Assembly (NCBI RefSeq): GCF_004217415.1
Contig: NZ_SHLI01000001.1
Coordinates: 930,001 to 994,000 of the forward strand
Source: Spiribacter vilamensis
GTDB taxonomy: Bacteria; Pseudomonadota; Gammaproteobacteria; Nitrococcales; Nitrococcaceae
Length of the DNA stretch: 64,000 nucleotides
Direction: 5' to 3'
Every line of letters starts with the position of its first letter. Position 1 is the stretch's first letter. Below, piece after piece: positions 40,861 through 61,008 of this stretch. Under the pieces are notes generated by a model that saw nothing but the letters and a program-made list of their open reading frames with translations, was not told where the DNA came from and searched no databases. Made by a program: the position numbers and the translations under genes.

Positions 40861-41889
40861 CTACTCCCTTCCCCCCAACCGGCTCCGAATCTCCCCCGAT
40901 GTCGGCAGGCGATAGCTCGTGCTGCGGCCGCCGCCCGGATTTGGCAACAGCAGACCGCGCTCGACGAGGCCGCGGATGTCACGCAAAGCGGTGTCAGTGG
41001 AGCACTTTGCGAGCCGAGCGTACTTCGAGGTGTTCATAAAGCCCTCAAAGCCGGCATCAAGCATGCGATTCAGCACCAGGCGCTGCCGTTCACTGACCGG
41101 CCCATCATTGGCCATTTCCCAGATCTGCGCCTTGTAGAGAACCGCCATCGACGTGCTTTCGGCGGATTCCAGCGCGCGACCCAGGCAGTCCAGAAACCAG
41201 GCCAACCATTCCGTTAGATCGGTCGACCCGCGCTGCTGGCGCTCCAGGCGCGCGTAATAGTGTCCTCGCTCCGTCTCGATCTGAGCCGACATGCTATAGA
41301 AACGATCTCGCATTCCGTCGGCGCGCGCCAGGGCCATATCGGTTATTGCCCTGGCGATCCTGCCATTACCGTCCTCGAAGGGATGAAGAGTGACAAACCA
41401 GAAATGCGCAATACCGGCTCTAAGGACCGGGTCGGTGTCATCCGGCGCTTCGAACCAGTCCAGGAAGCGCCCGATTTCCACATCGATGCGATCCGCCGCA
41501 GGGGCCTCGTAATGCACTCGCTCCTTGCCCACTGGCCCGGAGACCACCTGCATCGGCCCTGCCGAGTCCGGACGCCAGTCGGCTACCGTGATGCGCTGTA
41601 TACCGGTACGACCCGTGGGGGACAGCGCGGCATGCCAGTCGAACAGGCGCTCGGTGGTGAGCGGACTGTCGAATGATCGCGTTGCATCGAGCATCATCTC
41701 GACAGTGCCCTCGACGTTACGTCCGGCGGGCACATAGCCTCCGATGTCGATCCCGAGCCAGCGCGCGATCGAAGAACGGACCTCGCGTGGATTGAGGTTT
41801 TCCCCCTCGATAGATGAGGAGGTCACGACGTCAGTGGTTAGCGTCTCGAGACTGGCCTCGCGCCGAAGCTCAAAGCCCAGGCCCTCCAT
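40861..41889 (-). CDS. Fic-domain protein with winged helix; natural N-terminus cut by a nonsense codon
   Basis: The 342-aa frame from ATG 41889 has an N-terminal inhibitory motif SSSIEG (S24-xxx-E28-G29), the Fic active site HPFEDGNGRIARA, and a C-terminal winged helix (CSTDTALRDIRGLVERGLLL). Fic enzymes usually transfer AMP to protein targets. Upstream, an ATG at 42000 opens MPWIHE, then TAA at 41982-41980, then PNWPAFTWNNDALVDRLADI and 16 further codons that continue in frame into this ORF and match the usual N-terminus of the family. So the original gene probably began at 42000. It is either a pseudogene or is restarted at 41889. Confidence 0.85.
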   Translation of the reverse strand: MEGLGFELRREASLETLTTDVVTSSSIEGENLNPREVRSSIARWLGIDIGGYVPAGRNVEGTVEMMLDATRSFDSPLTTERLFDWHAALSPTGRTGIQRITVADWRPDSAGPMQVVSGPVGKERVHYEAPAADRIDVEIGRFLDWFEAPDDTDPVLRAGIAHFWFVTLHPFEDGNGRIARAITDMALARADGMRDRFYSMSAQIETERGHYYARLERQQRGSTDLTEWLAWFLDCLGRALESAESTSMAVLYKAQIWEMANDGPVSERQRLVLNRMLDAGFEGFMNTSKYARLAKCSTDTALRDIRGLVERGLLLPNPGGGRSTSYRLPTSGEIRSRLGGRE

Positions 41890-42813: not shown

Positions 42814-43923
42814 TTACCGGGGGCCCGTTGGGCCGCTACTGTCGCCCTCGGCATCCTCCAGCGGTGGGAGATTGAATAGTAGCGACGTAAGTCCGCGATT
42901 GATGTAGTAGTTCTCCCGCCCGAGCCTTTGCTTATCCAGAATCCCGTCCGCTGCCAGCGCATCCAGATACCGGGTTGCCGTCGCCCGTGAGACACCCAGA
43001 TCATGCTCGACAAAAGCGACCTTGGTGTAAGGGTGCCGAAAGATGTTGTTAATGAGGTCCTGGCTGTAGAAACGATGACGGTCTCGAACGAGGTGTTTAT
43101 GGCTTTGCAACAGACTGCCAATCGCCTCGACCAGCCGGGTCGTATGCGCCGCTGTAACGGCAACTCCCCGTAACAGATAGACGAGCCAGCCTTCCCATTC
43201 ACCGGTATTACGGACGTGCTGTAATTCGGCGTAGTAACGCGCCTTGGTCTGGCTGATATAGCGGCTGAGATAAAGGATCGGTGAATCCAGAAGACCGTCG
43301 CGAACCAGTGACAGCACATCAATAATCCGTCCGGTGCGGCCATTACCGTCGTAGAATGGCTGAATAGTTTCGAACTGATGATGGACGACCGCCATTCGGA
43401 TCAGCGGGTCCGGCGGTGCCTCTTCATGCAGATAGCGCTCAAGCTGCGACATCAGGTCAGGCAAGCGCTCCGGCGATGGGGGCTGGTAAACCACCTCGCC
43501 GGTCTGTTGATTCTGGAGCACCGTCCCCGGGGTCTTGCGAAAGCCCGCGGTGTTGCCCTCCAGAACGGCCTGGATTTCCAGAATCGTATTGACTGTTAGC
43601 AACCCCGTGCCGCGCACTGCGTGGAGTCCGGCCTGCAAACCATCGACATAGCGCGCCACCTCTTTACTCGCTGGATCAGCCTGCTCCGGCTGGACCTGTT
43701 GGCGGTAAAGGGCATCCTGCGTCGTGATGATGTTCTCGATCTCGGAACTACTCTGCGCCTCTTGCAGGGAGAGCGTAGAGATGAGCAGGTCTTCATTGGG
43801 GATCGTCTTCGCCACCCCTTTCAGCTCTGCCAGACGCCGATGGGCAGCCACCAGGGCACGCATCACCGGTAACGTCTCGAGGCCCTGAATCGGCGGAAAG
43901 TATTCATCCATCACTAACCCCAT
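42814..43923 (-). CDS. Fic-domain protein with C-terminal winged helix
   Basis: The 369-aa product has the Fic active site QPFYDGNGRTGRI, an N-terminal inhibitory motif in QSSSEIENIITTQ (S-xxx-E-N), and a C-terminal winged helix (LGVSRATATRYLDALAADG). It probably AMPylates a protein partner and may regulate its own promoter. Start is uncertain between ATG 43923 and ATG 43911. A 28-bp palindrome lies just upstream. Confidence 0.92.
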   Translation of the reverse strand: MGLVMDEYFPPIQGLETLPVMRALVAAHRRLAELKGVAKTIPNEDLLISTLSLQEAQSSSEIENIITTQDALYRQQVQPEQADPASKEVARYVDGLQAGLHAVRGTGLLTVNTILEIQAVLEGNTAGFRKTPGTVLQNQQTGEVVYQPPSPERLPDLMSQLERYLHEEAPPDPLIRMAVVHHQFETIQPFYDGNGRTGRIIDVLSLVRDGLLDSPILYLSRYISQTKARYYAELQHVRNTGEWEGWLVYLLRGVAVTAAHTTRLVEAIGSLLQSHKHLVRDRHRFYSQDLINNIFRHPYTKVAFVEHDLGVSRATATRYLDALAADGILDKQRLGRENYYINRGLTSLLFNLPPLEDAEGDSSGPTGPR

Positions 43924-43949
43924 CGCCAACTCTGGCAGTCGCTTGCTTC

Positions 43950-44038: not shown

Positions 44039-46480
44039 CTATTCAATGATCGCCACCAGTTCCGCCAGCACACGCAGATCCCCGATATCGTCCTCGGCCT
44101 CGAAAACGATGTCTTCGTATCCGGGGGCATTGGTTTCACAGCGCAGCACGATGCGGGCGTGCCGCCAGCCGTCTTCGGTTTGCGTCTTCTCGCTGTGATA
44201 GCGCTTGACGGTCAGGCCGCTCTGCGTCTCCGCGTCCTGGATATCTCGATGCTGCACAAGCACGATCCTGCCCTCACGCGTCCCGGCCGGATTAGCGCGG
44301 AACAGGCAGAGAGAGCCGTTGGGGATGGACCGGTTCATGGACTCGCCGACAACCCGCATAACGAAATGGTCGGTCTTCGCGTTGAAGGCCTCGGGCAGCA
44401 CCACCCGTTGATCAGACTCTACGGGTCGGGACTGGTGGACGGGAGACTCGGCAAAGGCACCCGCCGCGGCCTTCATTTCAACGAACGGAACCGCGTTATC
44501 GGCGGGTGTGACGGCGTCAGCGTCAAGAAAATCCAGCCCCGCGGGGTCGGATTCACTGTCAGCGCCGGGATTATTCGCCGTCTGGCCGCCTTCCCCGTTA
44601 CGCGCCGGTGCCGGCCGCGCGATCGCCTCGGCGGCACGCGCAGCAAACCAGTCCTGCGTCTCCCGGTCGGTGCAATACACGAAGCACCCCTTCATGCCTC
44701 GACTCATCAGCGTGCGGTAGGTGTTGCGTATGATCCGGTCGGCCTTTGCGGTCGCGGCGGCGGGGTCGTTGGCGAACGCGGTCTTGTAGCCGCGCAGCGA
44801 CCGATCCGTTTTCGCGCGTTCACCCGGCTGCGTGACGACACGGCCGTCCCGCACCACCAGGTCAGGACCGATGATCACGCCCACATAGTCCATTTCCAGG
44901 CCCTGGACGGTGTGGATGCAGCCGACCTGGTCAATGGAATGGGGTTTTTCGAGGTATCGGCCCTCATCCTCTACGAGGTTCCAGGCCATGGCGAAGTCTT
45001 CCCCCGGGAACTCGATATCAACGGCGCCGGCGGTCTTTTTGCTAACCCAGTCCCAGCAATAACCGGCGACCAGTCGGGCCTTACTGCCGGCGCGGTCGAG
45101 CTCGAAGATCCGGTCCTTGAGCGCACTCGGCGAGTCCACGACCTCGAAGTGATAGGGGACGTCCTGCAGATCGTCCTGGGCCGTCGGGCGGATACCGAGT
45201 AACTGGTCCAGCCACGCCAGGTAGCCATCGGACCCGTTGCAGCGGAACTGTGACTGCAGGACGACGCGCTGCAGAGTCGCGCCCGCCCGCTCGGCCCAGT
45301 CCCGGATCTCGTCGATCGATCCGGTATCCGCCCAGGTGACCTGCTGGTCCTCGTCGATGAAAAAGATGCTCGCCTTTGCTGCGCGGATGATGTCGCGGAT
45401 CTGGTTCGTGCCGGCCTTCTGGTACTGCGAGCGCTCCACGAGGCGATGCGCCTCGTCCACCACCAGGGCATCCATTTCATCGTCGGCGGCGGCGTCGTAG
45501 CTGGCCGAGCCCTTGAAGAGGTTATCGAACCGGTTTTTGCGCATCGTGCCGGTCAGCCGTGCCTGGTAGACCTGGCGCGGCGCCCGGTTGGTCGTGACGT
45601 AGTGCGTTGTGCACTCGCGGTTGATGAGTTCGACGAGCAGGTTGATGGCGACCACGGATTTGCCGGTGCCGGGCCCGCCCTCTACGATCAGGACCTGCTT
45701 GCCGCCCGTCCGCGCCAGCCCGACCACCTCGAGCGCCGCCTCGTAGGCGAGCTTCTGGTCGTCGATCATCAGGAATTCCCGATGGCCGCGCAAGAGACTG
45801 GACAGCGAGGCCGCCAGATCGCGGGAGGGCCGGATCTCGCCATGCTCGATGCGATAGAGCGTCTGGTTCCGGTCGCCGGTTTTTACGTAACGGCCGATGA
45901 AATCCCGCAGCCGCCGCGGATCGTGTTTGAGAAAGACCGGGGCCCGATCGAGATGCTCGCGGTAGTGCTCGTCGCAGACTCCATCGCGTTCAACACAATT
46001 GTGCAGGTAGACACAGGGCGCCAGCCGAACAGCCTCGTCCTCGACGGTGGCATTGAAGTCCCGAAGCAGCGAGGCGTAGCTCCAGGCCTGGTAGGACGGA
46101 TGGGTGGTCTCGCGCTCGCGGCCGCCGAGCCAGGTCCGCACGATGGCGTCCTTTGACGTCGCGGTGACGTCACTCCACTGCTTGAGCTCGACGATGACGC
46201 AGACGGCCTGATCGTGCTCGTCACTGCCGGAGACGATTATATCGACGCGCTTCGAGGTCTGCGGGATGCGGTATTCGATGGCAATGCCCGCGTCATCGGG
46301 GATCGTCGGGCCCTCGAGGACGTTTTTCATGCGCAGCAGCGATTCCTCCCAGGACTTGCGCTCGCTGTCGCCGACGCCGCCCTGCCCGGTTCGCTGCATG
46401 GCCGCCAGGATCCGCTCGGCGATGCGGTTGTCCCCCACATCGCGCAGAAACCCGGGTTTATCACTGGTGTAGACGAGCAT
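44039..46480 (-). CDS. Nuclease-helicase (DUF2075-like) with C-terminal S24/LexA-like peptidase domain
   Basis: The 813-aa protein has an N-terminal PD-(D/E)xK-like core (RVDIIVSG, with D80, and VCVIVELKQW, with E98 and K100) and a DUF2075/SF1 helicase-like ATPase with Walker A GGPGTGKS (268-275), Walker B DALVVDEAHRL and FFIDEDQQVTW. The C-terminal S24 domain (about 665-813) has Ser714 in VVGESMNRSIPNGS, a candidate Lys759 in LTVKRYHSEK, and A673-G674 in VEMKAAAGAF, 40 residues before the Ser. LexA and UmuD cut themselves at such a dipeptide when RecA filaments form. So a nucleic-acid-cutting helicase may be released or switched by self-cleavage. Divergent from the methyltransferase gene. 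The combined role is inferred. Confidence 0.85.
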   Translation of the reverse strand: MLVYTSDKPGFLRDVGDNRIAERILAAMQRTGQGGVGDSERKSWEESLLRMKNVLEGPTIPDDAGIAIEYRIPQTSKRVDIIVSGSDEHDQAVCVIVELKQWSDVTATSKDAIVRTWLGGRERETTHPSYQAWSYASLLRDFNATVEDEAVRLAPCVYLHNCVERDGVCDEHYREHLDRAPVFLKHDPRRLRDFIGRYVKTGDRNQTLYRIEHGEIRPSRDLAASLSSLLRGHREFLMIDDQKLAYEAALEVVGLARTGGKQVLIVEGGPGTGKSVVAINLLVELINRECTTHYVTTNRAPRQVYQARLTGTMRKNRFDNLFKGSASYDAAADDEMDALVVDEAHRLVERSQYQKAGTNQIRDIIRAAKASIFFIDEDQQVTWADTGSIDEIRDWAERAGATLQRVVLQSQFRCNGSDGYLAWLDQLLGIRPTAQDDLQDVPYHFEVVDSPSALKDRIFELDRAGSKARLVAGYCWDWVSKKTAGAVDIEFPGEDFAMAWNLVEDEGRYLEKPHSIDQVGCIHTVQGLEMDYVGVIIGPDLVVRDGRVVTQPGERAKTDRSLRGYKTAFANDPAAATAKADRIIRNTYRTLMSRGMKGCFVYCTDRETQDWFAARAAEAIARPAPARNGEGGQTANNPGADSESDPAGLDFLDADAVTPADNAVPFVEMKAAAGAFAESPVHQSRPVESDQRVVLPEAFNAKTDHFVMRVVGESMNRSIPNGSLCLFRANPAGTREGRIVLVQHRDIQDAETQSGLTVKRYHSEKTQTEDGWRHARIVLRCETNAPGYEDIVFEAEDDIGDLRVLAELVAIIE

Positions 46481-46564
46481 CCTGCTCCTTTGAACCGGCC
46501 TTATGTCTGGTCAAATGCATTGCAGACGATACATCCTGTCGGGGCAAGCACCAGGGACAGGGCC

Positions 46565-47194
46565 ATGGCTGATTTCTACTCGGAAAACGCAGAGACGCTT
46601 TTCGAGCGCTACAACGCGCTGGATTTCGAGGCGGTGCATGCGGCGCTGATGCCCCTGCTGCCCAGCACGCCGGGGACGGCGCTGGATGTTGGTGCGGGTT
46701 CCGGGCGCGATGCGCTCGCGCTGGCGCAGCGAGGCTGGGAAGTGGTGGCAGTGGAACCAGCGCGGCGGCTGCGGGAACTGGGTGAGGCTTATACCCAGGG
46801 CCAGTCGGTTCAGTGGATGGATGATCAGCTGCCGGATCTGAACCGGAGCTGCGCGCTTTCAGAGCGTTTCAACCTGATCCTGCTATCTGCGGTGTGGATG
46901 CATGTACCGCCCGGGCGGCGGCAGCAGTCGCTCAGGACGCTAGCCGATCTGCTAACGCCAGGGGGCGTCCTCTACCTGACATTGCGACATGGACCGGGTG
47001 ATGGTGAGCGGGCTTTCTACCCAGTGAGTCACAACGAAGTCGTCGATCTTGGCGCTCGCGAAGGCCTGGCCAACATTAACCTCAAAGCGCAGGTACCCCA
47101 ACCGCTTGACCTGCAGGGCCGTGCTGCGGTCACTTGGGAGACGATTTGCTTGCAACGCCCCAGCGAGACCGACCAAAACACCGATCCGGCATAA
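46565..47194 (+). CDS. Class I SAM-dependent methyltransferase
   Basis: The 209-aa protein has motif I ALDVGAGSGRDALALAQRGW, the acidic ribose-binding region VVAVEPARRLRELG, and LTPGGVLYLTLRHG. It lacks the DPPY/NPPY motif of DNA amino-methyltransferases, so a small-molecule or protein substrate is more likely. It lies between the two S24-bearing helicases and 15 bp before the second, so it may be cotranscribed with it. Confidence 0.88.
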   Translation: MADFYSENAETLFERYNALDFEAVHAALMPLLPSTPGTALDVGAGSGRDALALAQRGWEVVAVEPARRLRELGEAYTQGQSVQWMDDQLPDLNRSCALSERFNLILLSAVWMHVPPGRRQQSLRTLADLLTPGGVLYLTLRHGPGDGERAFYPVSHNEVVDLGAREGLANINLKAQVPQPLDLQGRAAVTWETICLQRPSETDQNTDPA

Positions 47195-47209
47195 GGAAAT
47201 AGAACGCTC

Positions 47210-50200
47210 ATGGCCGAGCACGCCCCTTCGGCAGCAACGCCCCTCCCCCGGCTAATCCGCGGCGGTGCCGATGATCCGCTGCTGCCGCAGCTGCTGACCT
47301 CGATCCGTCACGCCTCCGAGATTGAGCTGGCGGTCTCGTTTATCAAAAGCAGCGGGCTCGCCCTGATCTTCAACGCCCTCAGCGAGCGCTGCAACCAGGA
47401 AGCCCCGGTCCGCATTCGGATTATCACCAGCGATTACCTAGGCGTGACCGACGGCCAAGCTCTCCGCAACTTAATGCTGTTGGCCGAGCGTGGCGCCGAT
47501 GTGCGGGTATTCGAGACTCACGGCAGGAGCTTTCATCTCAAGGCCTATATCTTTACCCGCGAGGGTGGCCATCGGGGTGAGGCATTCATTGGCTCGAGCA
47601 ATATCAGCCGCGAGGCGCTCACCGCCGGTCTCGAGTGGAACTACCGGGTCGAGGAGCCCGATGCCGCCGGGGAAGCGCGGCTTGCCGAGATCCGCGAGGC
47701 ATTCCAGGCGATCTTCACCGCCGATGAGGCACGTGTACTGGATTACGCATGGATCGAGGGGTATGAGCGGCGGCGTCCTGTGGACCGCCCAGCGATCGCA
47801 CCGGGCAGTGATGATCATGAACTCCCCCCGCCCGATCCGACCTCGACGCAAGTCGAGGCCCTAGCCGCCCTGCGAACCTCCCGCGAGGCGGGCCACGCCC
47901 GGGGCTTGGTGGTAATGGCCACGGGCCTCGGCAAGACCTACCTCGCCGCATTCGATGCCGCGCAGGCCGGCGCAGGCCGTGTGCTGTTCGTCGCCCATCG
48001 CGCCGAAATCCTGCTGCAGGCGGAGGCCACGTTCCAGCGCGTTTTCCCGAAGGCGCAGATCGGTCGCTACCAGGGTAATGAGCGCGACACGAATGCCGAT
48101 ATGCTGTTCGCCTCAGTCCAGACGCTGCATCAGGCGCACCACCTAGCGCAGTTCGATCCCGACGCGTTCGAATACATCATTATCGACGAATTCCACCACG
48201 CGGCCGCCGGCACCTATCGTCGTTTACTGCAGCATTTCGCGCCCACCTTCTTGCTGGGTCTGACGGCGACGCCGGATCGTGCCGACCAGGCCAATATCCT
48301 GTCGCTCTGCGACGATAATCTCGTCTATAGCGCGGACCTGTTCGATGGGATTCGGGCGTCGCTGCTCTGCCCATTCCATTATTACGGCATCCTCGATGAG
48401 ACCATCGACTACCAGTCATTGCCCTGGCGGAATCGCCAGTTCGAGGAGCAGGCCCTCGAAAACCAATTGGCCACCCGAGGCCGAGCTCGCCATAACCTGC
48501 GCGAATGGCGCGAGAAGGCCGGTCAGCGCACCCTCGCCTTCTGTGGCTCACGTCGGCATGCGGACTTTATGGCCGATTATTTCCAGCGTGCCGGGGTATC
48601 GGCAGTCTCTGTTCATGGCACCTCGGCGACCAGCCGTGATGAGGCCATCGAGCACCTAACCGATGGCCGTCTCGCGGTGGTCTTCTCGGTGGATCTATTC
48701 AGCGAGGGCGTGGATATCCCGGTGGTGGATACCGTCCTGCTGCTACGACCCACCGAATCGCCGGTGCTCTTTCTGCAACAAATCGGCCGTGGGCTGCGCC
48801 GGGCCGACGGCAAAGACCACCTGATCGTCCTGGACTTCGTGGGCAACCATCGCGCGTTTCTGAACCGCCCGCAGGCCTTGTTCAAGAGCGAGACCACAGG
48901 TGACGGTTTACGCGGATTTACCAAGGCCTACCGCAACAACACGCTCGAGCTGCCGCCCGGGTGCTTCGCCAACTACGACCTGCAGTTCATCGAATTCCTT
49001 GAAAGCCTGATTCCCGGCAATGCGGGAGAGGAATTCGAGAATCTGCGGGCCGCCCTTGGCCGTCGCCCGACGGCGACCGAGGCCTATCGTGCCGGTCTTA
49101 GTCTGAAGAAGCTGCGCGACAGCGCCGGGCACTGGTGGGCGTTCGTCGACAGCAAAGGCGAGCTGACCGAGGCAGAGGCGCATTGTGTGACCGCGCACGG
49201 TAACTTCCTGCGCGAGGTCGAGACCACGGCGATGACCAAGTCGTACAAGATGGTGCTGCTGGAGGCGCTGTTAGAGATCGACGGGTTCACCATACCGCCG
49301 ACGTTGGAGGCACTCACCGCGGCGTCCGCCCGAATCTTCCACCGACGGCCCACTCTTCTCGCCGATCTGCCCCAGGCCCTGCAGTCGACTGACGCACTTG
49401 ATAGCGAGAGCCTCGCCCGAGAGTGGCGCAAGAACCCGATCTACTTCTGGACCAAGGGAGATAAGGGACCGGAGGTTGATCGCTGGTTTGTTGTCGAGCG
49501 CGACCACTTTCGCCCTAACTTCGCGTTGGATGGCCAGGTCGATAAAGCGACGTTTACCGATATGGTTCAGGAGTTGGTGGACTATCGGCTCGCGCAGTAT
49601 CGGCCCAAGAAAGGTGATACAGGCGGCACTACGGTCATTGCGTTTCCAGGCGGACAGCATCAATCAACGCTCCCCTACTACCCGGATCTGCAAATCGCCT
49701 GCGGGCACTTTCGTACAAGCAATCCCGAGGAACCGGAGCAGATCGGCGTGCCTGCGGGCGTTGGGCGTATTGATCCCGAGCGCCACTTCGTCGCCCGGGC
49801 CCGCGGTGACTCGATGAACGGCGGCAAGCATCCCATTCAGGATGGTGATTACCTGCTGATGGAATGGGCCACCCCGACATCCGCTGGCTCAATCACCGGC
49901 TCAACGCTGGCGTTGGAGCGTGGCGACGAGGCCGGTGATACGCAGTACCTGTTGCGCGAAGTCGTTAAGAATGGCGATGGGCAGTATTGGCTACGAGCCC
50001 GGAATCCAGAGTATGAGGATCTCCCCGCAGACGAATCCATGCGCACCTTCGCGCGACTGAAGGAGATCCTAGACCCACTCGCAATGGCGAAGGGGCAAAA
50101 CTATTACCGCCAAGAGATCCCACCGCTTTTCGGTGAGGTCTTCAATGCGGCCATCTGGGAGACTGGCCACGTAGTGCTGCCTGATCGAACTCATATCCTG

Positions 50201-50491
50201 CTGGTAACGCTCAACAAGCAGGGCAAGCAGACTGAACACCGGTACCTGGATCACTTCATCGACGATCACACCTTCCATTGGCAGAGCCAGAACCGGACTA
50301 CACCTAGAGACAAGCGCGGGCTAGAAATCGTCGAGCAATCCAAGCGAGCAACGCGGATCCATTTGTTTGTGCGTGAGCATGGTCTAGGACCAGACGGCCG
50401 AGCTGCACCATTCCGCTATATCGGAGAGGTGGAGTATCTATCGCATGAGGGGGAGAAGCCAATGGGTGTGAGGTTTCGGCTGATGTCGTAG
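47210..50491 (+). CDS. PLD nuclease-SF2 helicase-S24-DUF3427 protein
   Basis: The 1093-aa protein has an N-terminal PLD nuclease (FHLKAYIF with H109 and K111, then FIGSSNIS). An SF2 helicase follows with motif I MATGLGKT (235-242), motif II DEFHH (326-330), and motif VI LQQIGRGLRRADGK. An S24 domain (about 815-930) has Ser868 in RARGDSMNGGKHPIQDGD, candidate Lys920 (REVVKNGDG), and C831-G832 in LQIACGHF, 36 residues before the Ser as in UmuD (Cys-Gly). A C-terminal DUF3427 part ends at 1093. Self-cleavage at 831/832 would separate nuclease-helicase from the rest. It is likely cotranscribed with the methyltransferase. Good ribosome site AAGGAAA upstream. Confidence 0.88.
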   Translation: MAEHAPSAATPLPRLIRGGADDPLLPQLLTSIRHASEIELAVSFIKSSGLALIFNALSERCNQEAPVRIRIITSDYLGVTDGQALRNLMLLAERGADVRVFETHGRSFHLKAYIFTREGGHRGEAFIGSSNISREALTAGLEWNYRVEEPDAAGEARLAEIREAFQAIFTADEARVLDYAWIEGYERRRPVDRPAIAPGSDDHELPPPDPTSTQVEALAALRTSREAGHARGLVVMATGLGKTYLAAFDAAQAGAGRVLFVAHRAEILLQAEATFQRVFPKAQIGRYQGNERDTNADMLFASVQTLHQAHHLAQFDPDAFEYIIIDEFHHAAAGTYRRLLQHFAPTFLLGLTATPDRADQANILSLCDDNLVYSADLFDGIRASLLCPFHYYGILDETIDYQSLPWRNRQFEEQALENQLATRGRARHNLREWREKAGQRTLAFCGSRRHADFMADYFQRAGVSAVSVHGTSATSRDEAIEHLTDGRLAVVFSVDLFSEGVDIPVVDTVLLLRPTESPVLFLQQIGRGLRRADGKDHLIVLDFVGNHRAFLNRPQALFKSETTGDGLRGFTKAYRNNTLELPPGCFANYDLQFIEFLESLIPGNAGEEFENLRAALGRRPTATEAYRAGLSLKKLRDSAGHWWAFVDSKGELTEAEAHCVTAHGNFLREVETTAMTKSYKMVLLEALLEIDGFTIPPTLEALTAASARIFHRRPTLLADLPQALQSTDALDSESLAREWRKNPIYFWTKGDKGPEVDRWFVVERDHFRPNFALDGQVDKATFTDMVQELVDYRLAQYRPKKGDTGGTTVIAFPGGQHQSTLPYYPDLQIACGHFRTSNPEEPEQIGVPAGVGRIDPERHFVARARGDSMNGGKHPIQDGDYLLMEWATPTSAGSITGSTLALERGDEAGDTQYLLREVVKNGDGQYWLRARNPEYEDLPADESMRTFARLKEILDPLAMAKGQNYYRQEIPPLFGEVFNAAIWETGHVVLPDRTHILLVTLNKQGKQTEHRYLDHFIDDHTFHWQSQNRTTPRDKRGLEIVEQSKRATRIHLFVREHGLGPDGRAAPFRYIGEVEYLSHEGEKPMGVRFRLMS

Positions 50492-50800: not shown

Positions 50801-53800
50801 TTATGAAAATCTCTCCGAAAAGCTCGCATAATTGTCGTCAACTCTGAACTCGACCTCGTTGCCCAGTGCTTCGAAATGCGCCTCACCGCACTTGATCTTC
50901 GCCTTCTCCGTCGGGCGTAGCGCATCGTAGAAGAGACTCCCTTTCGACTCCACGACGAAGTACAGGCGTTCTTGGCCATCAGTATCGACTACGACTGCCC
51001 AATCCGGATTGTACGCACCGAGCGGTGTATCGATATGGAACCAGGGTGGCAATTTGGCGTAGACCTTGATTTCGTCGTTGCGCTCGAACGCCTCCGCGAA
51101 GTTCGCCTCCACGTCGGAGTCGTAGACCACGTGGTCATACACGGACTTCTCGCTCTCGATCATGTTTCGACTGAGATACCCGAACAGTTCTTCCTGTTCA
51201 AACAGCTCTTGGGCGTAGAACTGATCGTCGCCGAGCTTCTGATACTTGATGCCATCCACGATGAACAGCTCCATTTGGCGGCGGATGATCTCCTGCACCT
51301 GCTCAACGAACTTCTGTGGGTTACCCCGGAAGTCACTCAGGCGCTCGCTCCGAACCAGGATCTCCACCAATGTGCGCCGAGTCAGGTTCGTCTCGTTCTG
51401 CAGGAAGCCGACGATATCGGGTAGCTGGAAGTCCCGGGCATCGTAGGTTGCGGGGGTCTCTTTCACCGCCTCAGCATCCACGCCTCCTCGCGTCACATCC
51501 AGGCGGGCGGTGCGCGTCACGAAACGGGCTTTGCCCACGCGAAGGTTATCGCGAATCTCCTCGGCACACCGCTCTATCAAGGCTTGTACGTCAAAGTCCA
51601 CCCGATAGGTCGTGTGGTGTTTGATTCGGTCCCAGAGAGCCTTGAAGTCATCACTCAGGTAGACGGCTTTATTGAGCTTTACCTGGCGCCGATCATCCTT
51701 GTTCTGGATATGTAGCCGACCGGCCAACTTACGCAGCACTGCGGTAATTGAATCGGCGTGCTCGGACGCCTGCTCTGGGAGTGACACTTCGCCAGTCTTT
51801 AAATCCCGCCGCAGGTCATCCTGCACTTTGCCGTTGGCGTCGATATAGCCCTGATCACGCAGGTGGGCCCAGACGGTTTCTGACGCTTCAACCCCGAAGT
51901 AACCGGATTCACCTTCCTGAGTTTCCACGGGGATTCCCGCGAACATGTGCTTCTCAACAACCCCAAAGCGAATGCCCTCCTCCCTTTCGATCTCGGACTG
52001 GAGCTGTTTAGCGAAGTCCTCGTAGGACTCATTGGCCATGACGGTCAGCGTATTAACATCAAAGCCGTGCACCCGCTCACCGTCCTGGTTTACGGCCAGG
52101 CGAAGGCCTCGGCCGATCTCCTGGCGTTTTTTCATGGTGGACTGCGTCTCGTTGAGCGTGCAGATCTGGAAGACGTTCGGGTTGTCCCACCCCTCCTTGA
52201 GAGCCGAGTGGGAGAAGATAAACTTGAGCCGTACCTCAAAGCTCAGTAGCCGCTCCTTGTCCTGCATAATAAGCTGATAGGCGCCTTCATCGGCTTGGGT
52301 CTGCCCTTCGCCGCGGGAGTCCTTCAGACGCGCCTCCCCCTTGGCATCCTTCTTCTTATCTTGGGCGAAATAGCCGTTGTGCACGTCGCGGGCCTCAGTT
52401 TCCAGATCCACCTCACCAAACAGGCTCTGGTACTTGGGCTTTCGAGCAGCACGCAGGTACTCCTCCTCGAAAATCCGGGCATACTTTCCAGGTTGAGGGT
52501 TGCCGTCCTCGTCGTACGTCTTGTAGTTGGCAACGCGATCAATAAAGAAGAGGCTGAGCACTTTGATACCACGAGGCTGTAGCTTCAGCTCCTTCTCCAG
52601 GTGCTCCTCGATGGTCTTGCGGATCTGCAGCCGTTTGTACTCATCCTCATCCACCTGCCCGATGGCTTGGCCAAGACGAACAATGTCCGGCTGGCTCGTG
52701 AAGCTGACGTACTCGTTGCCCGGCTCGCAGTAAATGTCTTCGATGATGTAACCATCGTAGACGCTACGGCCGCCACTGGTATCCAGTAGATCTTCCCCAC
52801 TGCGCACCCACTTCGCCTTGCGCGCCACTTTGCCGCCTTTCTGAAGCAGATCCAGCTCGAGCCTGGCGCGAATCGGGCTCTTGCGATTATCTACCTCCAG
52901 CAGCTTCACGTAGGCCTTGTTATGACTATCCTGAACTTCGATACCAGAGACCTCGATTTGCTTGACGAGCTTGCGCTCGTAGGCATCCACCGAATCGAGC
53001 CGATAGAGCATATGGTGCTTGTCCAGATGAGTCGCCGAGTACCGCAGCGTGCAAAGCGGGTTTAACGAGCGTATGGCCTCCCGGCTCTTCTCCGTGCTCG
53101 CCACACTTTGAGGCTCGTCGATAATGACAACGGGGTTCGTGGCCTGGATGAATTCGATGGGCTTGTTACCGGTCATGCGGTCGTGAGGACGATGGATAAT
53201 ATTCGCCTTGTCCTCTTTCTCCGAGTCCTCAAAACTGCGCCGAAAGGCGTCGATATTGATCACCATGATCTGGATCGTGTCGCTGGTGGCAAAGTTGCGG
53301 ACCTGGCCGAGCTTCTGTGAGTCATACACGAAGTAATCGAACGGAGTGTTGTCGTAGAGGCCCTTGAAGTGCGGCTCCGTCATCTGGAGTGACTTATATA
53401 CGCCCTCCTTGATGGCCACGGACGGCACCACAACGATGAACTTAGTAAAATCGTAACGATGATTCAGCTCGAAGACCGAGCGCAGGTACACATACGTCTT
53501 ACCCGTGCCTGTCTCCATCTCCACCGTGAAATCCAGCGTATCTAGCTCGGTCGACGGGGCAACACCGTTGCGGAGTTGGATGTCTCGCACGTTCTCCAAG
53601 ACATCTTCGTCCAAGAGGCGAAGCCGGTTTCCCACTCCCAGATCACCACTCTCCTGGCCGAAATTCATGGCCATCTGTGGCTCACCCTGCAACGGCGCGA
53701 CGGTGAAGTTGGTCTGGCACACCTCCTGGCCTTCGAACAAATGCGTGACGGCGTCGATTGCCTCGCGCTGGTAGTCCAGACTGCCATCAAACTGAATCTT

Positions 53801-53803
53801 CAT
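50801..53803 (-). CDS. Type III restriction enzyme, Res subunit
   Basis: The 1000-aa protein has SF2 motif I EMETGTGKTYVY (about 95-106), motif II IIDEPQS (228-234), and later helicase motifs (NVFQICTLNET, KRQEIGRGLRLAVNQ). The C-terminal endonuclease has PD-(D/E)xK residues in YNPDWAVVV (D934) and VVESKGS (E952, K954). With Mod it cuts DNA carrying unmodified sites, using ATP-driven movement. It overlaps the RhuM gene by 4 bp and is the last gene of the operon. Confidence 0.95.
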   Translation of the reverse strand: MKIQFDGSLDYQREAIDAVTHLFEGQEVCQTNFTVAPLQGEPQMAMNFGQESGDLGVGNRLRLLDEDVLENVRDIQLRNGVAPSTELDTLDFTVEMETGTGKTYVYLRSVFELNHRYDFTKFIVVVPSVAIKEGVYKSLQMTEPHFKGLYDNTPFDYFVYDSQKLGQVRNFATSDTIQIMVINIDAFRRSFEDSEKEDKANIIHRPHDRMTGNKPIEFIQATNPVVIIDEPQSVASTEKSREAIRSLNPLCTLRYSATHLDKHHMLYRLDSVDAYERKLVKQIEVSGIEVQDSHNKAYVKLLEVDNRKSPIRARLELDLLQKGGKVARKAKWVRSGEDLLDTSGGRSVYDGYIIEDIYCEPGNEYVSFTSQPDIVRLGQAIGQVDEDEYKRLQIRKTIEEHLEKELKLQPRGIKVLSLFFIDRVANYKTYDEDGNPQPGKYARIFEEEYLRAARKPKYQSLFGEVDLETEARDVHNGYFAQDKKKDAKGEARLKDSRGEGQTQADEGAYQLIMQDKERLLSFEVRLKFIFSHSALKEGWDNPNVFQICTLNETQSTMKKRQEIGRGLRLAVNQDGERVHGFDVNTLTVMANESYEDFAKQLQSEIEREEGIRFGVVEKHMFAGIPVETQEGESGYFGVEASETVWAHLRDQGYIDANGKVQDDLRRDLKTGEVSLPEQASEHADSITAVLRKLAGRLHIQNKDDRRQVKLNKAVYLSDDFKALWDRIKHHTTYRVDFDVQALIERCAEEIRDNLRVGKARFVTRTARLDVTRGGVDAEAVKETPATYDARDFQLPDIVGFLQNETNLTRRTLVEILVRSERLSDFRGNPQKFVEQVQEIIRRQMELFIVDGIKYQKLGDDQFYAQELFEQEELFGYLSRNMIESEKSVYDHVVYDSDVEANFAEAFERNDEIKVYAKLPPWFHIDTPLGAYNPDWAVVVDTDGQERLYFVVESKGSLFYDALRPTEKAKIKCGEAHFEALGNEVEFRVDDNYASFSERFS

Positions 53804-54876
53804 TTCTGACTCTCTTCTGCGTCACCACCACTAAGCTGAGCTCCCTTGCGGGCCAGGTCTTCCAAAGCTCGCATTGTGTCCTCCTCACCCTTGGCTTCTT
53901 TCAGAGAGCGGCGCCGCTCATCGAACTGGGCATATTCGTCACGAGCCTTCTGGTCCGCCACACTCTTGCGCACGCTCCCGTGGCCACTCAAGACATCACG
54001 GTCATTGAACTCCAGGAACTGGTCGAGCTTCTCCTGCCAGTCGTTGATGAACACCTGACGGCGGCGCCTCGCCTGATCTTCGGCGAAGTCCAGCCACATG
54101 GTGACGATGCGGTTCAGCTCGTTGATTTCATCTGCATTGAGGTAGTTTTTTGCCACAGTCACATCCGCTGAGCGAACCTCCCCACCCTTCCAGCTCGTGA
54201 GCCCCATATTGGGTGAAGCGTGATCAGCACGTCTGTGGATTAACTCCGGCGCCGTCTGGCCGGTCGCCGCGTAGTGGAGCTTATTCTGGACGTGCTGGAA
54301 GAAGCGCTGGGTTTCCTTGGCGCTGGGCTCATAGTCCGCGGCCAAGGCAAATATCTCTCGCACCCGCAGATACATCCGACGCTCGCTGGCGCGGATGTCG
54401 CGGATGCGTTCCAGTAGTTCGTCGAAGTAGTCGGGCACGCCAGGGCCGGGCGGGTTCTTGAGTCGCTCATCATCCATGGCGAAACCCTTGATCAGGTATT
54501 CCCGCAGTCGGTCCGTGGCCCAACGGCGGAACTGGGTACCCCGTTGACTCCGCACCCGATAGCCCACGGCAAGAATGGCATCCAAACTGTAGTGCTTAAC
54601 CCTGTATCGCTTGCCGTCCGGTCCAGTAGTCAAGTAATCCTTGATAACTGCCGAGCGATCTAACTCGCCTTCTTCCAAGAGGTTCCGCAGGTGCAGGCTG
54701 ATGTTCTGTTTGCTGGTCTGATAGAGCTCGGCAATGAGCGCCTGGCTCAACCAGATGGTGTCATCCTCGAAACGGCATTCGACCCGGGTCGACCCATCCT
54801 CACTCTGGTAGACGAAGAACTCGCCTCTAGACGAGGCGACATCGTCGTCCGGCCTTTCGCTACCTTCCTCACTCAT
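53800..54876 (-). CDS. RhuM family protein
   Basis: The 358-aa protein matches the RhuM virulence family: FFVYQSEDGSTRVECRFEDD, TIWLSQALIAELYQTSKQNI, YSLDAILAVGYRVRSQRGT, FRRWATDRLREYLIKGFAMD. The N-terminal part resembles a KilA-N/Bro DNA-binding domain. The function of RhuM is not settled. It sits between mod and res in the restriction operon, where such genes recur. Confidence 0.9.
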   Translation of the reverse strand: MSEEGSERPDDDVASSRGEFFVYQSEDGSTRVECRFEDDTIWLSQALIAELYQTSKQNISLHLRNLLEEGELDRSAVIKDYLTTGPDGKRYRVKHYSLDAILAVGYRVRSQRGTQFRRWATDRLREYLIKGFAMDDERLKNPPGPGVPDYFDELLERIRDIRASERRMYLRVREIFALAADYEPSAKETQRFFQHVQNKLHYAATGQTAPELIHRRADHASPNMGLTSWKGGEVRSADVTVAKNYLNADEINELNRIVTMWLDFAEDQARRRRQVFINDWQEKLDQFLEFNDRDVLSGHGSVRKSVADQKARDEYAQFDERRRSLKEAKGEEDTMRALEDLARKGAQLSGGDAEESQK

Positions 54877-54891
54877 GCGATCTCTCCCCGA

Positions 54892-56775
54892 TCAAAGACT
54901 CTTTACGTCTTCGATGCCCGCTTGGCGCAGGATCTGTACGGTATTGGTCTTCACCACATCGTCGGCAAAGCCCGCATCCTTGAACACGACACGCATCACC
55001 TCGGGGGTTAGCTCGTCCTTAAGCGCCGCGATGCCCTTGACCACATCTAGATTGACGTCGTCGGCCAGGCAGACGACCAGCGCTCCGGCACCGATGAGGA
55101 AGACCGTTCTGCCGGCGATGTCGCGCTCTTTGATAGGTACGGCTAGGTCTAAGCCGTACTTAAGCAGTAGTTCGTGGAGTACGTCACGTTGCGTTCGTTT
55201 AGGCTTAATGCTGTTGATGCTACCAAAAAGGGAAGCCTCTATTTCATCTTCTTTCGGATCCCAAGGAACAATATTGCTAGCACTAAGCTTAAGCACTTTG
55301 AAACCCATGTCACGTCGATAAGACGCGCCCTCAGAAGCATTGTCCACATCTATGCGTTCAACAACTCGGCGCACTCTTTCTCTACACACCTCAGCAACCG
55401 TACTCATTCCAAGTGAAGCTGCGGCTTTGCCGTGCGGAACCTCCTCATTTATTGGCTCAGGAAGCTGAACCATAAGAAAGCGTCCAGCTTGATGATTTAA
55501 TACAGCATGAGCTGTCGAACCAGATCCTGCAAAAAAATCAAGGCAAAGATCATCATCTTTGACTCCGGCAAGTTGTAGCATGCGCAGAATGAGGCTTGTC
55601 GGCTTCGTTGTGTCAAAAGGGACTTTTCCATCAAACAACGCCTTAAGCTCGTCAGAGGCCTTACGGGTAGTACCGGCGTCACGAGCAAACCAAATTGACT
55701 CCGGCGGTCGTCCTTCTTGTCTATATAGGTAAATTTTTCTAACAATTCGGCTTTCATCCTTAGAAAAAACTACTTCACCGCTTTTTATCTTTTCCTCCAT
55801 CTTTTCTTTACTCCACCGCCATCCATTCTCCGGTGGATCTATCGTTTTTCCAGAAGGTGTCGTCAATTGATATATCAGGTTAGGTCGGTAAAGTGCGTTC
55901 CTCACGTCCCCTGCTCGCCAAGCACCATTTGAGTCGTCATCAGGATTCGAATAGTTCTTATTATCTTCCTCAGACCTAGGAAGCGAGTGAAGCTGAAAGT
56001 TATCGCTTTTCCTAAAGCAGAGAACATAATTGTGATGCAAAGAAAATATCCCGCTGTATCCTTTAGGTTGAACGCTGTGCTGCCACACGACACAAGCTAC
56101 TTCATTCTCTTCACCAAAAATCTCTCCCATAATTTTTCTAAGATTTTCTATCTCATTATCATCTATCGAGACGAATATAATCCCATCATCCCGAAGCAGG
56201 TTGCGCGCTAGCCGCAGTCGCGGGTACATCATGTTCAGCCAGTTGGTGTGATACCGGCCGGAGGACTCGGAGTTGGCCGAAACTTTAAAGCCTTGGTCGT
56301 CAATCTGTCCCGTGTAGCGCAAGTAGGTGTCCAGGTTGTCCTGAAACCGGTCGGGGTAGATAAACTCCCCGCCCGTGTTGTAGGGCGGATCGATGTAAAT
56401 CATCTTCACCTGCTTGTGGTACGACTTCTGAAGAAGCTTAAGCACCTCTAGGTTGTCGCCCTCAATGAACAGGTTCTGAGTGGTGTCCCAGTTGACCGAC
56501 TCCTCCGGGCAGGGGCGCAGGGTCCCGGCGGACGGAGTCTGCGCAATCTGGCGGGCGCGTGCCTTGCCGTGCCAGCTAAAGCTGTAACGCTCGCGCTCAT
56601 CCTCCACATAGTCGCCCAAAATCTGCCGTAGGGCGTCGAAATCCACCTTCCAGCGCGAGCCATCCCGATCAGATCCTTCCGCGAACGCATCGGGGAACAG
56701 TTCGCGGAGCTTGTCGATGTTTTCCTGAACGATGTCCGGCGAGGCGCCGTCTTGCTTCGGGTCCAGCTTATCCAT
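54892..56775 (-). CDS. Type III restriction-modification methyltransferase (Mod)
   Basis: The 627-aa beta-class N6-adenine methyltransferase has catalytic motif IYIDPPYNTGGEF (DPPY at 129-132) and, later, the SAM motif LDFFAGSGSTAHAV (about 412-425). The region between them (about 215-410) is the target-recognition domain and is markedly AT-rich compared with flanking DNA (about 55.5-56.2 kb), which suggests domain exchange by recombination. It methylates one strand at the site and forms the Mod-Res complex. Confidence 0.95.
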   Translation of the reverse strand: MDKLDPKQDGASPDIVQENIDKLRELFPDAFAEGSDRDGSRWKVDFDALRQILGDYVEDERERYSFSWHGKARARQIAQTPSAGTLRPCPEESVNWDTTQNLFIEGDNLEVLKLLQKSYHKQVKMIYIDPPYNTGGEFIYPDRFQDNLDTYLRYTGQIDDQGFKVSANSESSGRYHTNWLNMMYPRLRLARNLLRDDGIIFVSIDDNEIENLRKIMGEIFGEENEVACVVWQHSVQPKGYSGIFSLHHNYVLCFRKSDNFQLHSLPRSEEDNKNYSNPDDDSNGAWRAGDVRNALYRPNLIYQLTTPSGKTIDPPENGWRWSKEKMEEKIKSGEVVFSKDESRIVRKIYLYRQEGRPPESIWFARDAGTTRKASDELKALFDGKVPFDTTKPTSLILRMLQLAGVKDDDLCLDFFAGSGSTAHAVLNHQAGRFLMVQLPEPINEEVPHGKAAASLGMSTVAEVCRERVRRVVERIDVDNASEGASYRRDMGFKVLKLSASNIVPWDPKEDEIEASLFGSINSIKPKRTQRDVLHELLLKYGLDLAVPIKERDIAGRTVFLIGAGALVVCLADDVNLDVVKGIAALKDELTPEVMRVVFKDAGFADDVVKTNTVQILRQAGIEDVKSL

Positions 56776-56793: not shown

Positions 56794-57546
56794 TTATAGC
56801 CCGGCGGTCGCTAGCTGTAGCTGTTGTTCGAGCTGCTTGATACGGGTATTGACCTCAACCTGCCGGTTGAAGCGGGTTTCCTTCTTGATCTCGGCCCGCA
56901 GCCGGGAGATTTCCCCTTCCAACCGGTGGCACTCGGTCAGCGTTTCGCGTCGCTGCTTTTGCTGCTCGGGTCGGGAAGGCACGCGAAAGGTGCCGTTCAA
57001 TCGAGCGCAGGCCAGAGCAAGCAGCCTCTGGTGCCAACCGTCATATAGGGCGTAGTAATGTGACTGGGGCTGCTGGCGCAACGTCAGGCTTTGCAGAAAC
57101 GCCTGTTCGATTGCCTCCGGCGCCTCGTGATCCATCCAGGCGGTAGTTTGGATCTCTTCGGCCACCACCGCCCCACGTTCTGCTCGACTGGCACGCTTAT
57201 GGGCCGTGCTCACCACAAGCCCATTACTTTGCATGAGTATTAGTAACAGGGGGTACGGAATCGCCCGATGAATGATCTCGGCGAGGCGCTGAGCGCGCTT
57301 GGCATCTCGGAGCTCAACCTCAATCACCGCCAGCTCCGAATAATCCCGCTCGTCGTCCTGGTAAACGCTGACAGGCAACGTGCTTGGCTTGAGGGTGTAC
57401 TGCCAGGTCACCGTCTCCACGTCATCCGTAAATGCCCGACGGTCCGCCGCTGATAGTTCTGCGTTCTCGAAGAAGAGCTTCTTGTACACCCGTTTTCCCA
57501 GGTAAGCGGCCTCGGGCAAGGCGAGGTGTTCGTACACTTGAAGCAT
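56794..57546 (-). CDS. DUF4391 protein
   Basis: The 250-aa product resembles DUF4391: VTWQYTLKPSTLPVSV, ELAVIEVELRDAKRAQRLAE, IPYPLLLILMQSNGLVVSTA, and a C-terminal coiled coil (GEISRLRAEIKKETRFNRQV). The family recurs between an SNF2-like helicase and a type III Mod gene and has no assigned activity. The start overlaps the helicase stop (TGATG), so translation is coupled; mod follows 18 bp later. Confidence 0.85.
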   Translation of the reverse strand: MLQVYEHLALPEAAYLGKRVYKKLFFENAELSAADRRAFTDDVETVTWQYTLKPSTLPVSVYQDDERDYSELAVIEVELRDAKRAQRLAEIIHRAIPYPLLLILMQSNGLVVSTAHKRASRAERGAVVAEEIQTTAWMDHEAPEAIEQAFLQSLTLRQQPQSHYYALYDGWHQRLLALACARLNGTFRVPSRPEQQKQRRETLTECHRLEGEISRLRAEIKKETRFNRQVEVNTRIKQLEQQLQLATAGL

Positions 57547-60500: not shown

Positions 60501-60758
60501 TGCAGCGGTATCCAGTCGGTTTCGTAGTCGTCGGTCTGCCTCACCGTCATTGATACAAACTGCAAGTCTCAGATGATCCTCACCAGACTGTTCGGGCAAT
60601 AGCAGCCGCGTTAGAGCCGTGCGCTCTAACGCCTGCTTCACGGCGAAGTAGGCGTGCACGGAGAAGTCACCAGAGAGGCACGATAGCCTCCCTCCCTTCT
60701 TGATACCGGTATCCAATGCCTCTTGGACTGTGCCGTGCCTTCGGTTGTCTATGAGCAT
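57546..60758 (-). CDS. SNF2-type helicase with degenerate PLD-like N-terminus
   Basis: The 1070-aa protein (from ATG 60758, MLIDNRRHGTVQEAL) has a PLD-like region (about 75-137) whose last strand reads KFAVHGSSALTTSGLG but lacks a clear HxK catalytic pair. An SNF2 ATPase follows with motif I ADSVGLGKTFEALA (Walker A about 258-265), motif II VVIDESHNFRN, motif III LMLSATPVNNRMND, and motif VI IIQRFGRIDRLGS. It probably moves on DNA. It is the first gene of the operon helicase-DUF4391-mod-rhuM-res. The start at 60758 is chosen because GGGGG precedes it; an upstream ATG at 60809 is possible. Confidence 0.88.
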   Translation of the reverse strand: MLIDNRRHGTVQEALDTGIKKGGRLSCLSGDFSVHAYFAVKQALERTALTRLLLPEQSGEDHLRLAVCINDGEADRRLRNRLDTAAVARRCTKWIEERAEVRSTKATPAHNLFYAGNADGTKFAVHGSSALTTSGLGVVTSNAYLMNTLVQSDAEAAQLLEWFNAIWDEAAEGGDAKASLLDHLHDLYSTKAPELIYFLTLHNLFQDYLGELDEENIIKTRTGIKDTRVWNKLYRFQRDGVLGAIDKIERFNGCILADSVGLGKTFEALAIIKYYELRNDRVLVLAPKKLRENWALYTVNDTRNLLAEDRFNFDVLNHTDLSREGGMSGEINLETVNWGNYDLVVIDESHNFRNNPPRKDGLTRYGRLMRDIIQAGVKTKVLMLSATPVNNRMNDLKNQIAFITEGRDDALYPEGIASIDTTLGKAQRRFNAWLRESDERRKTGHLLEALNFDYFSLLDRLTIARSRKHIEKYYDMGEIGAFPRRRPPRNLYPPIDLQGQFPELREINRDIRRLHLSAYAPLRYVLPEKLEEYSRKYDMQVSGGSIFKQKDREESLIHLMRVNMLKRMESSIHAFALTVEKLLGGVRDLKDKLDNHDATDIEEWSIEGIEVEDEAFDPYLVGNKVKVLIQDVDRVRWRQDLEEDEAQLVKLLREARDVSAERDAKLEQLKEQVREKGANPFNPGNNKVLVFTAFADTAEYLYGQIADWALETLGLRAGKVTGHSHGNRSTVPGLRRDIPSILTAFSPLSKERGAEGQLEIDILIATDCISEGQNLQDCDFLVNYDIHWNPVRIIQRFGRIDRLGSRNEVIQLTNFWPNLELDEYIDLEARVAGRMVLLDISATGEENVIEYAEGDAMNDLEYRRRQLHQLQNDVPSIEDLSDGISITDLTLNDYRMDLGEYLKQHGEQLERMSLGAFAVTTIDDLIESEDLGPGAIFCLRNMNARVHGDPTYPLAPHYLVYVGDNGEVRLNCTHTRRVLDQLKRLTLGRSRPDERAVSRLNHATSDGWDMAHYRALLAQAVAAVTGKAEERGVESLFEPGGTVISRDSFQGMDDFEVVSYLIVLDGAGAN

Positions 60759-61008
60759 CACACCCCCAAGGTCCAATCTAATCTCAGCCGATAAAATCGC
60801 ATGCTGCATTGAAACGACATATATATCGAGCCGTACGTCCAGCGCAGAATCACTTCGCTCACTCCGGACCAAACAAACAAGACGCCGATAAGAGAACCTT
60901 CAAGTGGAACCCGATTTTCGGACCAGGTGAGAAGTAAAGATTCAGAGCCTATCTGTTAGGTCCCAGACGATTGCATTGACAGCTGGCGAGTGAATCCCAG
61001 CATTAAGC

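Follow-up and report, generated by a model that had tools for sequence, protein, structure and literature searches.

The window, the whole 64,000-nt stretch of Spiribacter vilamensis DNA analyzed here, contains a defence island in which two large genes lie back to back around a small methyltransferase gene. An ORF check of the window confirmed this arrangement, given in a preliminary description of the locus, and showed both large ORFs to be intact and divergent.

44039..46480, minus strand: P0001, 813 aa, with a nuclease-like N-terminus, a Schlafen-group-3 (DUF2075) helicase and a C-terminal S24 domain (ORF, Pfam)
about 46565..47194, plus strand: P0003, a class I SAM methyltransferase of the TehB/Methyltransf_25 type, with a 15-bp gap to P0002 downstream (ORF, Pfam)
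47210..50491, plus strand: P0002, 1093 aa, SauUSI-like, with PLD nuclease, SF2 helicase, coupler, S24 domain and SRA reader in that order (ORF, Pfam, structure comparison)

Pfam also bore out the helicase families that had been named, SLFN-g3/DUF2075 for P0001 (E 4e-101) and PLDc_2, ResIII, Helicase_C and DUF3427 for P0002, as well as the placement of the S24 domain, which is terminal in P0001 and lies between helicase and DUF3427 in P0002. Each protein does carry such a domain: matches to PF00717 (Peptidase_S24) reached 29.1 bits for P0001 and 33.0 bits for P0002, against a curated cut-off of 23.3 bits. The only S24 genes in the 2.08 Mb genome are lexA, P0001 and P0002. Among 95 S24 matches from 56 gammaproteobacterial genomes, frames longer than 320 aa were seen only for P0001 and P0002. 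This survey (2 of 95 matches) and the conservation of residues in relatives exclude a chance origin of the fusions, and the preliminary description, which gives each protein an S24 (LexA-type) domain, is largely right.

In P0001, the following features were located.

44666..45700, minus strand: SLFN-g3/DUF2075 helicase domain, residues 261-605 (Pfam PF09848, E 4e-101)
46181..46243, minus strand: PD-(D/E)xK-like core, D80 ... E98-L-K100, suggestive only (motif kept in homologues)
44042..44473, minus strand: S24 (LexA-type) domain with canonical residues, PF00717 over residues 670-765 (Pfam, alignments)
44459..44464, minus strand: A673-G674, predicted self-cleavage bond (A-G invariant in P0001-type relatives)
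44339..44341, minus strand: S714, nucleophile (invariant)
44204..44206, minus strand: K759, dyad lysine (aligned to LexA K156, invariant in P0001-type relatives)

The helicase domain covers PF09848 in full (positions 1-354 of 354, 339 bits). At the N-terminus, for which Pfam returned no nuclease match, the motif 'RVDFILTG...VIVELKQW' is kept in homologues, with D80, E98 and K100 conserved. LexA cleaves itself at Ala84-Gly85 via Ser119/Lys156, triggered by RecA (PMC3834820). The corresponding A-G, Ser and Lys are kept across the P0001 type, GIY-YIG-DUF2075-S24 relatives included; the dyad column holds Lys in 11/11 P0001-type sequences and in 22/22 of the LexA/UmuD set, a count that leaves out one Arg row representing the frame of another protein. 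By these alignments, the S24 domain of P0001 has all the sequence hallmarks of a RecA-type autoprotease, conserved across relatives. Relatives that lack S24 are found at 46-53% identity. An AlphaFold model of the domain, built from 5 sequences only, had a pLDDT of 48 and was not used.

P0002 has a different set of domains.

47366..47674, plus strand: PLD nuclease domain with H109-x-K111 (Pfam PLDc_2; H in 74/74, K in 73/74)
47837..48889, plus strand: SF2 helicase/translocase domain (Pfam; 7clg_A, E 8e-85; Walker A and DEFH conserved)
49691..50035, plus strand: S24 domain of lambda CI/LexA fold, Ser-Arg variant (Pfam; AlphaFold model; Z 14.3 to CI, 13.4 to LexA)
50087..50488, plus strand: SRA-type target recognition domain, the C-terminal DUF3427 (PF11907; SauUSI TRD, Z 12.7; SUVH5/6 SRA)

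A single chain thus holds PLD nuclease, SF2 ATPase and SRA reader, with conserved catalytic motifs. Conservation of the PLD, Walker A and DEFH motifs indicates that the P0002-type nuclease-motor is under selection. P0002 belongs with the SauUSI-like type IV restriction enzymes, its activity being predicted from the family. The S24 domain sits on the sole link joining motor and coupler to the reader. In most relatives, the homologue of P0003 is fused to that of P0002. Pfam and PDB matches to P0003 were small-molecule, tRNA or peptide methyltransferases. DNA-methyltransferase motif IV (DPPY-like or PCQ) is absent from P0003, where the region reads LLSAVWMH or ACASLLH. As judged from these motifs, P0003 does not appear to be the protective DNA methyltransferase of a restriction-modification system.

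The AlphaFold model of the P0002 S24 domain (pLDDT about 90) had the lambda CI/LexA fold. Its best structural match was CI bound to RecA, followed by LexA, over 119-125 residues. Individual residues were compared in 80 relatives.

49700..49705, plus strand: C831-G832, putative cleavage dipeptide (C in 79/80, G in 80/80; low-pLDDT loop directly after)
49811..49813, plus strand: S868, nucleophile position (Ser in 80/80)
49826..49828, plus strand: K873, extra invariant lysine in SMNGGK (80/80)
49955..49957, plus strand: R916, at the dyad-lysine position by alignment (Arg in 80/80; six Arg codons used)
49967..49969, plus strand: K920, second conserved lysine, non-dyad (79/80; aligned to the second conserved Lys of the P0001 type)

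Every residue singled out in the preliminary description is present (A673-G674, S714 and K759; C831-G832, S868 and K920), but the role given there to K920, that of dyad lysine, is not borne out. Alignments with hhalign and with MAFFT including LexA, together with the location within the hairpin strand, ruled out K920 as the catalytic lysine; the position of LexA K156 is taken by R916, four residues before K920. Because Arg is found in all relatives despite the use of all six codons, Arg itself appears to be selected. This invariance, along with that of C-G and Ser, places P0002 in a Ser-Arg branch of S24 domains, which comprises about 275 genome stretches, mostly with the small methyltransferase fused. 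With the dyad Lys replaced by an invariant Arg, LexA-type chemistry cannot be assumed, and the conserved change probably disables or alters the active site. A phage origin of the P0002-type domain was considered and rejected: the single IMG/VR contig recovered is itself a P0002 homologue plus methyltransferase, and none of 50,697 phage records matched. A search of the open-access literature on SauUSI/DUF3427, on DUF2075, on S24 in helicases or restriction enzymes and on LexA with SRA, with few subscription papers in its scope, found no prior description of the system or its Ser-Arg branch.

One possible, if rather doubtful, reading is that the P0002 domain is a pseudo-protease, its LexA fold serving as a dimerization module or as a RecA-binding or DNA-end-sensing module that cuts no bond; P0001 may self-cleave all the same. 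The invariant Arg fits such a role, the same column being Lys in both LexA/UmuD and the P0001 type, and the C-terminal domains of LexA and CI do dimerize. Yet C-G and Ser are as invariant as Arg, whereas neither would be expected to persist in a dead protease, and the AlphaFold model shows a flexible loop following C-G, as expected of a cleavage loop.

Identity is 22% between the S24 domains of P0001 and P0002 and a similar 20-21% between either of them and LexA. Thus the earlier suggestion that both acquired the same protease cassette does not hold; the two belong to separate lineages. These separate lineages would suit a view we regard as somewhat improbable, in which two unrelated restriction-like genes merely adjoin in a defence island and their S24 domains act separately. 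P0001 relatives are frequently orphans, for about 76/80 P0002-type loci the fetched stretch contains no homologue of P0001, and two Marinobacter loci (L066 and L067) lack one at the same genomic site. Against chance, however, adjacency of DUF2075 and PLD-SF2-SRA genes is far more frequent than expected: both genomes of the gammaproteobacterial sample that hold the two genes have them side by side, and an L. plantarum plasmid has them adjoining, with pyrophosphohydrolases. Such adjacency also occurs without S24 in other bacteria. S24-bearing DUF2075 and DUF3427 genes, for which a search of other genomes had been suggested, adjoin in four Marinobacter genomes. Adjacency of P0001- and P0002-type genes is therefore recurrent but optional. 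For the proposed joint control of the pair, the Marinobacter neighbours speak in favour, and the separate S24 lineages and optional pairing speak against.

Control of the locus through an SOS box was also rejected. No LexA box was found at one mismatch within 43.9-50.9 kb; lexA of the same genome has a perfect one. In relatives, upstream boxes occurred in 9/70 cases versus a background of 7.7%, with no clear enrichment. By this measure, P0001 and P0002 do not appear to belong to the SOS regulon.

We favour, at a probability of roughly 0.38, the reading that the locus forms a module, within a defence island, of two nuclease-translocases that attack DNA and whose LexA-fold regulatory domains damp restriction via SOS. 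It builds on what was observed here, namely the domains, the folds of the P0002 S24 domain and reader, the residue conservation and the recurrence of the pair; the RecA trigger, the cleavage and the off-direction are what we infer. By family analogy, the SRA domain of P0002 would recognize foreign DNA by its modified cytosine, while translocation would fall to the SF2 motor and cutting to the PLD domain. RecA-ssDNA filaments, arising from phage replication, restriction products or host damage, would bind the LexA-fold domains of both proteins. In P0001, the filament would stimulate self-cleavage at A673-G674. The 673-residue product would end in -AAA and so resemble the LexA fragment degraded by ClpXP. 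In P0002, the altered Ser-Arg centre may cut C831-G832, or a conformational change alone may occur, either of which would uncouple reader from motor. LexA-type proteolysis by P0002 is doubtful, since Arg occupies the dyad position in every relative, and the lack of an upstream LexA box also counts against this reading. Because target recognition activates the SauUSI ATPase (PMC7913695), loss of the reader should turn the enzyme off. The net outcome would be restriction damped for as long as host RecA filaments are present, that is, SOS-coupled restriction alleviation.

The opposite direction, in which S24 restrains the nuclease-helicase and its release upon RecA filaments unleashes indiscriminate DNA attack (abortive infection), is unlikely, even though UmuD, activated by cleavage, is a precedent, the genes lie in a defence island, and cleavage of P0001 would leave the nuclease-helicase intact because S24 is terminal. 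Cleavage of P0002 would remove the reader, which SauUSI needs for ATPase activation (PMC7913695), and the -AAA end expected for the P0001 fragment is like that of the degraded LexA fragment.

Under the damping reading, LexA-like domains may give the cell a means of switching these defence enzymes in response to DNA damage. If so, the SOS signal would act on restriction directly within the enzyme, bypassing transcription, and DNA-damage-dependent restriction alleviation would gain a molecular handle. The S24 domain seems suited, as it stands, to reporting RecA filaments in the course of a phage infection, and the strict Ser-Arg conservation is a natural test of what variation the S24 catalytic dyad permits. 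A broader proposal, which we consider fairly unlikely, is that the whole MT-PLD-SF2-S24-SRA type IV branch (roughly 275 stretches) carries a RecA-responsive, self-cleaving motor-reader switch with a Ser-Arg centre, joined here by a partner nuclease-helicase with an independently acquired canonical LexA-type switch.

Among known systems, clusters of DUF2075, PLD-SF2-DUF3427 and nucleotide pyrophosphohydrolase genes, such as that on L. plantarum plasmid NZ_CP028230, likewise have both enzyme families adjoining, but there the enzymes are shorter, no S24 is annotated and small pyrophosphohydrolases replace the methyltransferase. P0001 shares its helicase domain with the DUF2075/Schlafen-group-3 helicases (PF09848), which have PD-(D/E)xK-like or GIY-YIG N-termini; a C-terminal S24 domain is present only in P0001 and a minority of relatives. 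LexA, lambda CI and UmuD resemble P0002 in fold and both proteins in cleavage dipeptide and nucleophile Ser, and P0001 also in Lys. Unlike these repressors and polymerase subunit, the host proteins here are nuclease-helicases, and in P0002 an invariant Arg replaces the dyad Lys and the SMNGGK loop is longer. SauUSI matches P0002 in PLD nuclease, SF2 ATPase, coupler and C-terminal SRA reader, in identical order (E 8e-85 over residues 9-561; reader Z 12.7), whereas P0002 adds two elements that SauUSI lacks, a LexA-fold domain before the SRA reader and a usually fused SAM methyltransferase.

The genome containing the window (2.08 Mb, two contigs) holds three S24 genes by whole-genome search: lexA, P0001 and P0002. 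The last two are divergent and sit in a defence island whose other members include Fic proteins, a type III restriction system, a DUF4391–SNF2 helicase pair and a GmrSD-type gene.

40861-41889, minus strand: Fic-domain gene beside the pair
42814-43929, minus strand: a different Fic-domain gene, also beside the pair
44039-46480, minus strand: P0001, 813 aa, intact
Start near 46565, end 15 bp 5' of P0002: methyltransferase gene (P0003)
47210-50491, plus strand: P0002, 1093 aa, intact
50801-53803, minus strand: type III restriction Res
53800-54876, minus strand: RhuM-family gene, interrupting the type III system between Res and Mod
54892-56775, minus strand: type III modification Mod
56794-60872, minus strand: DUF4391 gene and adjoining HKD+Snf2-type helicase (PADLOC C3a139), a defence-like pair
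61009-62799, minus strand: GmrSD-type (DUF262) restriction gene

One of the two Fic genes is SoFic-like, and several P0002-type loci also have Fic genes close by.

P0001 matched the Schlafen-group-3/DUF2075 helicase family (E 4e-101) and Peptidase_S24 (29.1 bits; Pfam cut-off, 23.3 bits), while P0002 matched PLDc_2, ResIII, Helicase_C, Peptidase_S24 (33.0 bits) and DUF3427. Of 95 S24 matches from 56 gammaproteobacterial genomes, these two alone fell inside open frames longer than 320 aa. The N-terminal half of P0002 (residues 9-561) matched SauUSI (7clg_A, E 8e-85), and PADLOC assigned the protein to type IV restriction. Residues 795-1093, modelled with AlphaFold from 50 sequences (mean pLDDT 85.8), comprise two domains. 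Residues ∼819-956 resembled lambda CI (Z 14.3 for RecA-bound CI, 13.9 for a hyper-cleavable CI fragment) and LexA (Z 13.4), and residues 960-1093 the SRA reader of SauUSI (Z 12.7), with SUVH5/6 SRA domains matching too. The modelled domain order therefore places the LexA-fold domain as an insertion between coupler and reader.

A Ser-Lys dyad had been proposed for both proteins. In P0001 this stands: cleavage-type A673-G674, S714 and K759 are all found, and relatives keep A-G, Ser and Lys. In P0002, however, alignments and model put Arg916 at the position of LexA Lys156. This column (MAFFT) held Lys in 22/22 true LexA-type and 11/11 P0001-type sequences, and Arg in 50/50 of the P0002 type. Profile–profile alignment of the two types (E 9e-8) likewise set R916 opposite K759, and K920 opposite a second conserved lysine of the P0001 type. 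The model places R916 in the middle of a strand and K920 where that strand ends. Both alignments and the model thus speak against K920 as the dyad lysine. S868, G832, K873 and R916 were unchanged in all 80 relatives, and C831 and K920 were each kept in 79. Relatives use all six Arg codons at R916, among them AGA and AGG, from which a single base change would give Lys, so Arg is actively kept. The invariance of the C-G dipeptide suggests self-cutting via a putative Ser-Arg centre, with K920 or K873 as further candidate residues; lacking a general base, P0002 may not cut itself.

P0001-type S24 domains occurred in 5 of 398 proteobacterial genomes, every time within frames of 732-829 aa. A second architecture, with a GIY-YIG-like N-terminus before the DUF2075 helicase and P0001-type S24 (L045, L150, L151), also keeps A-G, Ser and Lys; these genes are orphans amid housekeeping genes. 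Since relatives without S24 are found at similar identity, the domain was gained or lost. On a Halomonas sp. PA16-9 plasmid (L034, 11920-14390), the S24 part of a P0001 homologue is out of frame near 13930, through sequencing error or in a broken gene. After cleavage, the predicted N-terminal fragment of the window version would end in -AAA. The LexA N-fragment, ending in -VAA, is degraded by ClpXP; by this likeness, -AAA could be a degradation signal.

For P0002 relatives, 84,980 species' genomes were scanned once, giving 275 matching stretches; the best 80 of these 275 loci were fetched, making 81 P0002-type loci with one viral contig. The P0002 homologue has an N-terminal extension of at least 180 residues in 60 of the 81, and in nearly all 60 the methyltransferase query matches inside it; in ∼13 further fetched loci the methyltransferase is a separate neighbour. 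One Marinobacter protein of 1287 aa unites all five parts: methyltransferase, PLD, SF2, S24 and DUF3427. Because it is fused or adjoining in most fetched loci, the methyltransferase belongs to the P0002-type system, as a separate gene in the window. DNA methyltransferase motif IV was not found in the P0003 family, where the region reads LLSAVWMH/ACASLLH, and none of the P0003 database matches was of DNA-methyltransferase type. Some P0002 relatives lack the reader, the chain stopping after S24. An HNH_2 endonuclease-domain gene lies beside the P0002 homologue at L053, L064, L072, L096, L116 and other loci, within 250 bp in 8 of the 12 loci having one.

The preliminary description held that both proteins had acquired the same protease cassette. 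Identity between the two S24 types is 22%, no closer than to LexA, so they look like separate acquisitions. Besides the pair in the window, P0001 and P0002 homologues adjoin, co-oriented, in four Marinobacter genomes (L071, L097, L104, L115), in most of which the methyltransferase is fused. Yet at Marinobacter L066 and L067, where the P0002 homologue has the same SbcC-like neighbour, no P0001 homologue was found; hence this partner is optional, and the four pairs may represent one event. SbcC-like genes (SbcD-like further upstream) flank the four pairs 5' at a common site, that of L115 apparently split over three frames. One Thioalkalivibrio genome has both homologues on different contigs. Among 274 gammaproteobacterial genomes, 11 had DUF3427 and 14 had a strong match to SLFN-g3. 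Both occurred in two, side by side each time, once with S24 (the window) and once without (G258); the chance of adjacency within 6 kb is ∼0.3–0.6% per genome. An L. plantarum plasmid has, in a row, pyrophosphohydrolase, PLD-SF2, pyrophosphohydrolase and DUF2075 genes. The partnership of the two enzyme families is real, and joint control through S24 is possible.

On RecA filaments, LexA cleaves itself at Ala84-Gly85 by Ser119/Lys156 (PMC3834820). Because P0001 has LexA-type residues, RecA-stimulated self-cleavage is a natural hypothesis for it. In P0002, cleavage or domain movement at the motor–reader link would uncouple target recognition from the attack on DNA. We favour a picture in which RecA filaments would damp restriction, an SOS-coupled restriction alleviation. 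Its main rivals are that cleavage activates the enzymes for abortive infection, or that the domain is a pseudo-protease with a structural role only. The genes are unlikely to be under direct transcriptional control by LexA, since no LexA box was found at P0001 or P0002 and relatives' loci showed no clear enrichment, whereas lexA of the same genome has a perfect box.

In the open-access literature searched, neither SauUSI-type nor DUF2075 enzymes were described as carrying S24 domains. In SauUSI, recognition of modified cytosine by the reader activates the ATPase (PMC7913695). P0002 shares with SauUSI the N-terminal half and the SRA reader, but SauUSI lacks the LexA-fold insertion.
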